The notes under the pieces were generated by a model. That model saw only the letters and a list, made by a program, of their open reading frames with translations, was not told the DNA's origin and did no database searches. Below, piece after piece: positions 43,442 to 44,831 of a stretch of DNA of 64,000 nucleotides (the stretch's first letter is position 1; each line of letters begins with the position of its first letter). The position numbers and the translations under genes are program-made. Source of the stretch: Bacteroidales bacterium (lineage in GTDB: Bacteria > Bacteroidota > Bacteroidia > Bacteroidales > UBA932); the NCBI GenBank assembly GCA_024398105.1, contig JAKSJP010000010.1, positions 1 through 64,000 on the forward strand. The letters run 5' to 3'.

Positions 43442-44752
43442 CTATTTTACGATACCTTTCTCGAGGTATTCTACGAGATTGGTCTTCCTGACCTTCTCGG
43501 CTGCCGACTCGGCTGCAACCTCCTTCATGTCGTGCTCTACCATAATGTGTACAAGCTCCTCGAATGAGGTCTTGGTAGGATTCCATTTCAGCTGTGCGCG
43601 GGCCTTGGTCGGGTCGCCCCAGAGGTTGACTACGTCGGTAGGGCGGTAGAAATCCTTTGATACGGCTACGAGCTCCTTGCCTACAAGTTCTGCTGGACCT
43701 GCTACGCAGATACCCTTCTCGTCAGCGCCTTCGCCCTTGAACTCAAGCTCGATGCCGGCCTCCTTGAACGCGAGGTAGCAGAATTCGCGTACGCTGTGCT
43801 GCACGCCGGTGGCGATCACGAAGTCCTCAGGCTTCTTGTTCTGGAGAATGAGCCACATGCACTCTACATAGTCCTTCGCATAGCCCCAGTCGCGGAGAGA
43901 TGAGAGGTTGCCGAGGAAGAGCTTCTCCTGCTTGCCCTGTGCGATCCTTGCTGCGGCGAGGGTGATCTTGCGTGTCACGAATGTCTCACCACGGCGCTCT
44001 GACTCATGGTTGAAGAGGATGCCGTTGCAGCAGAACATGTTGTATGCCTCGCGGTACTCCTTTACGATCCAGAATCCGTAGAGCTTTGCGACAGCATATG
44101 GAGAATATGGGTGGAAAGGAGTATTCTCGTTCTGAGGTACTTCCTCGACCTTGCCGTAGAGCTCCGAAGTGGAAGCCTGGTAGATTCGGCAGGTCTGGGC
44201 AAGTCCGGTCTGGCGGACTGCCTCGAGTATGCGGAGCACGCCGGTGGCGTCTACGTCTGCGGTGAACTCAGGGGAGTCGAAGCTTACCTGGACGTGGCTC
44301 TGTGCGGCGAGATTGTATACCTCGTCAGGACGTACCTTATTGAGTACCTGGATGATGCTCATAGAGTCTCCGAGGTCTGCGTAATGGAGGTGGAAGTTAG
44401 GCTGTCCCTCAAGATGTGCGATACGTTCGCGATAGTCTACGGATGAACGGCGGATTGTTCCGTGTACGTCATAACCCTTCTCAAGAAGGAACTCGGCGAG
44501 GTAGCTTCCGTCCTGGCCTGTGATTCCGGTGATAAGTGCAGTCTTCATATCTGTTTTTCCCTGTTTGTTGAATTTTGTGTCAAGTGCTTCCTCAATAGCG
44601 CTGAGGCTGGTGCGTGAGATGCCTACCTTGCCGGCGAACCAGCGTGATACTGCGGTCTCGTCCTTGCCGATAGCCTCGGCCAGCTCCCTTTGTGTGAGCC
44701 CCTTGCGCTGCATTGCGCCCTTGATCTGCGAGATAAGCTTAATATCAATCAT
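43442..44752 (-). CDS. gmd: HTH domain fused to GDP-mannose 4,6-dehydratase
   Basis: 436 residues. Residues 1-62 are a Cro/C1-type helix-turn-helix ([20 protein letters not shown] with SLSAIEEAL following). From M69 a complete GDP-mannose 4,6-dehydratase begins: NAD motif G76-x2-G79-x2-G82 ([11 protein letters not shown]), STSELYGK, catalytic [35 protein letters not shown] and [13 protein letters not shown]. That part is 368 residues, the normal length. The enzyme makes GDP-4-keto-6-deoxymannose, precursor of GDP-fucose and related sugars. No fcl gene is adjacent. An internal start at 44548, preceded by AGGGAAA, could also give the bare enzyme. The promoter with operator-like repeats is described separately. 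Confidence 0.9.
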
Positions 44753-44756
44753 GCTG

Positions 44757-44764
44757 CAAAGTTA
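44757..44764 (-). promoter_or_regulatory. -7 promoter box for HTH-gmd
   Basis: On the minus strand this reads TAACTTTG, with TTTG exactly 20 nt further upstream (44785-44788). Only 4 nt separate the box from the ATG at 44752, so the HTH form would be translated from a leaderless mRNA. Confidence 0.6.
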
Positions 44765-44768
44765 CGAA

Positions 44769-44831
44769 ACTTGCAGGAACTTGACAAAAATATTTAAGGG
44801 AAAATTTGACTTGACAAAAATACTGTCAAGT
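44769..44831. promoter_or_regulatory. Phased operator-like repeats upstream of HTH-gmd
   Basis: ACTTGACAAAAATA occurs at 44779-44792 and again at 44809-44822, exactly 30 bp apart. A partial copy ACTTGCA lies at 44769, 10 bp before the first. The second copy forms an inverted repeat with TGTCAAGT (44824-44831; 8-bp arms, 7-bp spacer). All copies therefore face the same side of the helix. They overlap the -33 box and two further TATTTTTG boxes. Autoregulation by the fused HTH domain is the simplest reading (inference). Confidence 0.6.

Follow-up and report, generated by a model that had tools for sequence, protein, structure and literature searches.

The locus considered here raises the question of why a GDP-mannose 4,6-dehydratase (GMD) should begin with a Cro/C1-type helix-turn-helix (HTH) domain, and on which promoter such a domain would act. 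The gene lies in a 64-kb stretch of DNA, the whole of which is referred to here as the window, and the features of the locus are as follows.

44809..44831, no strand assigned: O1, candidate operator, a perfect inverted repeat ACTTGACA-N7-TGTCAAGT (CTTGAC-N9-GTCAAG), repeated with N8 or N9 in many, not all, relatives
44785..44788, minus strand: putative -33 element TTTG (consensus as in the available text of PMC7366714)
44779..44786, minus strand: O2, candidate operator, TGTCAAGT over the putative -33 element, invariant in the aligned fusion promoters (16/16)
44757..44764, minus strand: putative -7 element TAACTTTG, 4 nt ahead of the ATG; a gap of 4-5 nt in 13/23 listed fusion genes
43442..44752, minus strand: HTH-GMD fusion gene, 436 aa, a single continuous frame
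44567..44752, minus strand: N-terminal Cro/C1-type HTH domain, residues 1-62, with a match to HTH_3 and under purifying selection
44578..44585, minus strand: O3, candidate intragenic operator, ACTTGACA near the HTH/enzyme junction, many relatives having a counterpart that falls in another codon frame
44549..44566, minus strand: short linker, residues 63-68, variable in alignment A1
43442..44548, minus strand: complete GMD from M69 (TIGR01472; 1db3, E 2.4e-134; alignment A1)

That the HTH is joined in one frame to a full-length dehydratase, as an earlier note on this sequence had claimed, is borne out for both parts of the 436-residue protein. When the N-terminal 68 aa were used as the query, HTH_3 (Pfam) matched residues 10-61 with an E value of 3.5e-12 (46.6 bits, cut-off 23), and even with the whole protein as the query it scored 42.4 bits against the gathering cut-off of 23, which places the domain in the Cro/C1 (XRE) class. 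The gmd equivalog TIGR01472 covers residues 70-411 at 501.2 bits against a cut-off of 415, the alignment extending over profile positions 1-341 of 342, i.e., the full length. The GMD motifs STSE...YAVAK and GITGQDG, which we take to have their usual roles in the enzyme, are retained in alignment A1, and together with the match to 1db3 this alignment depicts an enzyme part that is intact and highly conserved by sequence. Within the HTH, a stretch of 10 protein letters is presumably the recognition-helix region. The fusion is the sole GMD-level match of its own genome (the assembly is 91.8% complete), the next match being partial and only 29% identical, and the gene for GDP-L-fucose synthase (fcl) is found on another contig, C34, with 481.9 bits to NF047922, slightly short of the 500 required, which the relatives tested also fail to reach. 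An artefact of assembly or reading frame was ruled out, since the same fusion is seen across many separate assemblies.

The distribution of the fusion was assessed with an HTH profile (A2), which matched 62 of 400 sampled genomes of the same genus at E <= 1e-12. When the frames at the top-ranking loci were read, 20 enzyme fusions emerged, of which 17 are HTH-GMD, one per genome and with the genome of the window counted, and three carry other enzymes; matches beyond the best loci were judged by frame length, with the exception of a 272-aa frame in G599, which was considered as a further fusion and rejected, as by eye it carries an HTH with no enzyme part that could be recognised. A scan of genome contigs with the full protein returned four HTH carriers among the best 80 loci. 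Three of these (L007, L008 and L009) are HTH-GMD fusions on contigs bearing the names of other Bacteroidales; the fourth, L055, shares 150 bp of upstream DNA with L142 of G584 (by eye) and is therefore not an independent case. The fusion, for whose conservation in related genomes the earlier note had proposed to look, is present in 17/400 genomes of the genus and also in L007-L009. GMD was found at E <= 1e-100 in 30 of 101 genus genomes, four of the 30 being fusions. The fusion is nonetheless rare, as 392 additional order-level and 394 phylum-level genomes yielded no other one at E <= 1e-12. A broader profile run against 200 genus genomes (overlapping the 400) at E <= 1e-9 gave no new kind of fusion as judged by frame length. 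A phage origin of the HTH was dropped after a single scan of viral contigs found no relative of the domain.

An fcl-like gene directly follows the HTH-GMD gene at eight loci (L008, L009, L210, L211, L212, L213, L214 and L218), and at L222 one gene lies between the two; in the window no fcl-like gene directly follows. The identity of fcl was tested by profile in L008, L009 and L211 only (427-482 bits, all below the curated cut-off of 500) and by eye in the others.

Is the HTH a functional domain, or simply baggage? Small HTH domains are easily acquired, so that the domain could be a passive remnant of a gene fusion without any role in DNA binding. However, of 13 pairs compared, 12 give a dN/dS for the HTH between 0.03 and 0.25 (the other being saturated for the HTH), with lower values for GMD in each of the 12, and judged by these ratios the HTH is under purifying selection. 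As the candidate binding sites described below are also conserved together with the fusion, the passive remnant is considered a most improbable explanation. A second possibility, raised in the earlier note, is that the gene yields two isoforms, the fused regulator and a bare enzyme started at M69. An in-frame ATG is present at 44548 in the window, behind an A-rich leader, and in several relatives, so that two products may be made here; however, this cannot be general, as the junction lacks an ATG in L009, L144, L146, L147, L148 and L150-L152 and reads CTG in L008, so that there the principal product has to be the fused form. The internal start would thus be a local feature at most, and the two-isoform explanation appears unlikely.

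If the HTH is maintained by selection, the DNA that it would recognise becomes the central question. Exact copies of ACTTGACA occur four times in the window, all of them at this locus: at 44779-44786 (+), 44809-44816 (+), 44824-44831 (-) and 44578-44585 (-). The first three, which had been pointed out previously, are confirmed as exact matches, whilst the fourth, O3, lies inside the gene and had been missed. The count by itself is unremarkable (shuffled sequences average 2.2 copies and 21 of 100 shuffles reach four); what is notable about these sites is their clustering and conservation. Under a first-order Markov control, 150-bp upstream regions were simulated 2000 times and in no case attained the window's count of three half-sites.

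The promoter consensus given in the available text of PMC7366714, TTTG at -33 and TAnnTTTG at -7, points to a putative promoter among these sites. O2 covers part of the TTTG at 44785-44788, in agreement with the previous claim that the sites overlap the -33 box, and this TTTG stands 20 nt from TAACTTTG. With 4 nt between the end of the TAACTTTG box and the ATG, a leaderless or almost leaderless mRNA is predicted; the same part of that source gives 5' UTRs shorter than 10 nt as rare in B. thetaiotaomicron (about 3.7%). A TAnnTTTG box 4-5 nt before the ATG, predictive of a leaderless mRNA, is seen in 13 of 23 fusion genes (44752-44764 in the window, and relatives).

Repeat conservation, which the earlier note had also wished to see checked, is strongest at O2, the promoter-proximal 8-mer TGTCAAGT being invariant in all 16 aligned HTH-GMD promoters; this alignment leaves out L055, L118, L142 and L147, which have TGTCAAG at -34 too, and L156, an HTH-GMD fusion with another motif. 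The inverted repeat O1 lies about 30 bp further upstream, and wherever two upstream TGTCAAG copies exist they are 30-32 bp apart, with a third copy further on in L151. Of the phasing of 10 and 30 bp proposed previously, the spacing of about 30 bp is thus conserved, whereas the 10-bp element is unsupported, since the partial copy at 44769 (ACTTGCAG), which is present in the window, is not conserved in the 16-promoter alignment. O1 itself is more variable: its left arm is imperfect in L007, L144, L148, L150 and L151, its right arm is altered in L089 and L149, and in L009 the left arm is missing and only a half-site is retained. Nine of the 19 fusion genomes have an exact TTGAC-N8-9-GTCAAG upstream of their fusion gene and two more (G457 and G437) have one solely within it, leaving eight without one at the fusion gene. 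The association with the fusion is nevertheless marked, as CTTGACA or TGTCAAG was present within 250 bp upstream of 10/10 fusions first examined (136 bp being available for L007) versus 1/101 non-fused GMD genes (L107 having been dropped for its short upstream DNA).

At the intragenic site O3, ACTTGACA starts at coding nucleotide 168 in the window and at 179 in each of the 12 main-group genes, in which codons N60-L61-T62 read AAC-TTG-ACA without exception. Elsewhere among the first 63 codons of this group, the codon used for each conserved Leu, Thr, Ser or Val varies, and of 28 conserved codons 8 are invariant throughout. The fraction of synonymous shuffles reaching one site was 0.002-0.012 for six main-group genes and 0.006 for L009, and 0.238 for the window, 0.125 for L150 and 0.17 for L152, so that the window alone is within chance. 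The junctions of L150 and L151 hold a complete CTTGAC-N9-GTCAAG, and no intragenic ACTTGACA counterpart was found in the genes of L007 and L008. Taken together, these patterns give moderate support to O3 as a selected site. At the junction of L152, TGTCAAG stands where L150 and L151 have CTTGACA, with an Asp-to-Val change, the half-site being kept in the opposite orientation.

Recognition helix and site were then compared over 51 distinct HTH domains chosen by a custom motif, L007 being dropped for its short upstream DNA. An E-T-x-[VI]-S-R-W helix is present in 18 fusions, every one of which carries at least one upstream CTTGACA/TGTCAAG (one of them, L221, also has one TGTTAAG), whereas the four with an E-[ASP]-E-[VI]-S-R-W helix all have CTTAACA/TGTTAAG upstream and none has CTTGACA/TGTCAAG. 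For these four A-type regions the site counts were reached in 0.001-0.011 of Markov simulations. Among 29 HTH genes without an enzyme, CTTGACA/TGTCAAG was found upstream of three (L164, L165 and L196), which have an E-S-E helix, and CTTAACA/TGTTAAG upstream of two, whilst four with an E-T helix (L171, L173, L190 and L197) have neither site. The link between helix and site is thus confined to the fusions and does not amount to a simple code. These small enzyme-free XRE-type proteins, encoded in the same genomes, share the HTH fold and are the next best matches to the HTH profile; however, they stand apart on the HTH tree and the sites are mostly absent upstream of them.

The favoured explanation, which we regard as probable, is that the window gene encodes a self-repressing enzyme whose HTH would act on its own promoter, with binding, repression and the cooperative use of O1-O3 all inferred from sequence comparison. 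Every subunit of the multimeric GMD would bear an N-terminal HTH; predicted pairs of these on the multimer would bind the inverted repeat O1 as well as O2, which lies across the -33 box, with the intragenic O3 as a probable further target; the bound protein would then block RNA polymerase at its own promoter, and the concentration of the enzyme would set its own synthesis. Where fcl follows the fusion, the entire GDP-fucose branch could be controlled in this way, whereas the genome of the window has its fcl elsewhere. The earlier proposal that the enzyme represses its own transcription hence gains strong comparative support, as the sites track the fusion, helix and site covary among fusions, and the intergenic palindromes that could be placed are mostly at fusion genes, whilst the interpretation as a whole is supported in part.

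The main targets of the HTH might instead be other genes, such as those of a capsule or surface-glycan regulon. The sequence TTTTGTCAAGT is found at four places in the genome, two of them here, one inside a frame on C23 and one, on C20, directly ahead of a probable start codon, which would suit such a role. Palindromes of the form TTGAC-N7-10-GTCAA occur at 10 places in the same genome, compared with five for the reversed pattern; however, the nine other than O1 all lie in long frames, leaving O1 as the only intergenic one. Across the 19 fusion genomes, TTGAC-N8-9-GTCAAG occurs no more often than the reversed pattern used as control (83 vs 100, both strands), and a wider regulon was rejected on these two counts. 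When 30 palindrome loci were fetched, being part of all the places listed for these genomes, 12 were outside long frames, of which 10 adjoin the fusion gene (eight of 10 distinct places) and two, L227 and L239, are elsewhere and would again fit action on other genes. On balance a main role away from its own promoter is judged quite improbable.

A rival explanation is that bound GDP-mannose, GDP-fucose or NADP(H) would alter the oligomer and so release or strengthen DNA binding. The intact and highly conserved enzyme domain is in keeping with such a ligand-gated trigger enzyme; however, the linker is short and variable. Even with the precedent of BzdR and its bifunctional chimera (PMC3602430, in the part available), ligand gating is regarded as possible yet rather doubtful.

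Trigger enzymes such as PutA, NadR and BirA combine a metabolic enzyme and a transcription repressor in one polypeptide. The fusion described here would resemble them in having both, the repressor being predicted, and differs in that other proteins and other pathways are involved; we know of no trigger enzyme of the GMD, IspD or Gfo/Idh/MocA kind. No described HTH-GMD fusion was found among the matches listed in the literature searched, subscription journals being largely outside its scope, which agrees with the previous statement that there is no known example; the principle of an enzyme as regulator is itself already known from BzdR (PMC3602430). In their available portions, PMC4443731 treats GMD and HTH regulators apart, and PMC12565409 describes XRE regulators as often autoregulatory and as binding palindromes as dimers. 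According to the part of PMC3602430 at hand, BzdR consists of an XRE-type HTH and a shikimate-kinase-like domain which has lost catalysis and answers to benzoyl-CoA, and Q1 is a synthetic, bifunctional chimera in which the BzdR HTH is joined to a real enzyme. BzdR, Q1 and the fusion are alike in having an XRE-type HTH in front of an enzyme fold. However, the enzyme of the fusion looks intact, has another fold and has its own gene as its apparent target, and with a GMD rather than a shikimate-kinase-like C-terminal domain the protein falls outside the BzdR subfamily. If the proposed function is correct, these fusions would be natural instances, their enzyme sequence being intact, of the step from enzyme to transcription factor that was rebuilt synthetically for BzdR, as presented in that portion of PMC3602430. 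They would also form a very small circuit in which one gene product, as enzyme and repressor, steadies a glycan precursor in uncultured gut Bacteroidales, and the two classes of helix and operator make its specificity directly testable.

Unexpectedly, related HTHs were also found on a second GMD lineage (L150-L152), on an IspD-family protein (L153, by Pfam; below the NCBIfam equivalog cut-offs and so assigned at family level only) and on Gfo/Idh/MocA oxidoreductases (L154 and L155, the latter with HTH_3 at 22.5, just below the cut-off of 23), whilst L156 is an HTH-GMD fusion with an A-type helix. On a tree of the HTH, 23 fused domains split from 28 enzyme-free ones with an SH-aLRT of 98 (58 columns, with long-branch warnings), a split that is favoured by the fused set having supplied the search profiles. 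A single clade of all HTH-GMD proteins in the GMD tree (48 rows hand-picked out of 121) was rejected with a p-AU of 9.3e-6 for 20 rows, an optimistic value as the grouping was tested after the first tree had been viewed. As the GMD parts are not monophyletic, the HTH has come together with different enzyme genes on more than one occasion, either through fresh fusions or because the enzyme part recombined, and one original fusion with later recombination of its GMD part may suffice. A broader reading, tentative and a little short of an even chance, is that an operator-bearing promoter and a small HTH form a reusable module that has been joined repeatedly to genes for sugar-nucleotide and surface-polymer enzymes of at least three folds, creating self-limiting enzymes; helix and operator would have co-diverged, and the junction site O3 would take part in the repression complex, the multimer possibly bridging O1, O2 and O3.

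The surroundings of the other enzyme fusions were also inspected. In G630 (L207:9736-10659), the HTH-IspD-family gene has TGTTAAG and CTTAACA upstream and, by eye, a probable transporter gene downstream, and in G478 (L209:6350-9682) CTTAACA sites lie upstream of an HTH fused to a Gfo/Idh/MocA oxidoreductase. In G581 (L208:9331-16315, the locus of L154), an HTH-Gfo/Idh/MocA gene with CTTAACA upstream is adjoined by sugar-nucleotide genes and is followed on the same strand by genes for an amino-acid permease, a nucleotidyltransferase, PEP mutase, phosphonopyruvate decarboxylase and 2-aminoethylphosphonate aminotransferase, the last three scoring above curated cut-offs and thus marking a phosphonate gene run.
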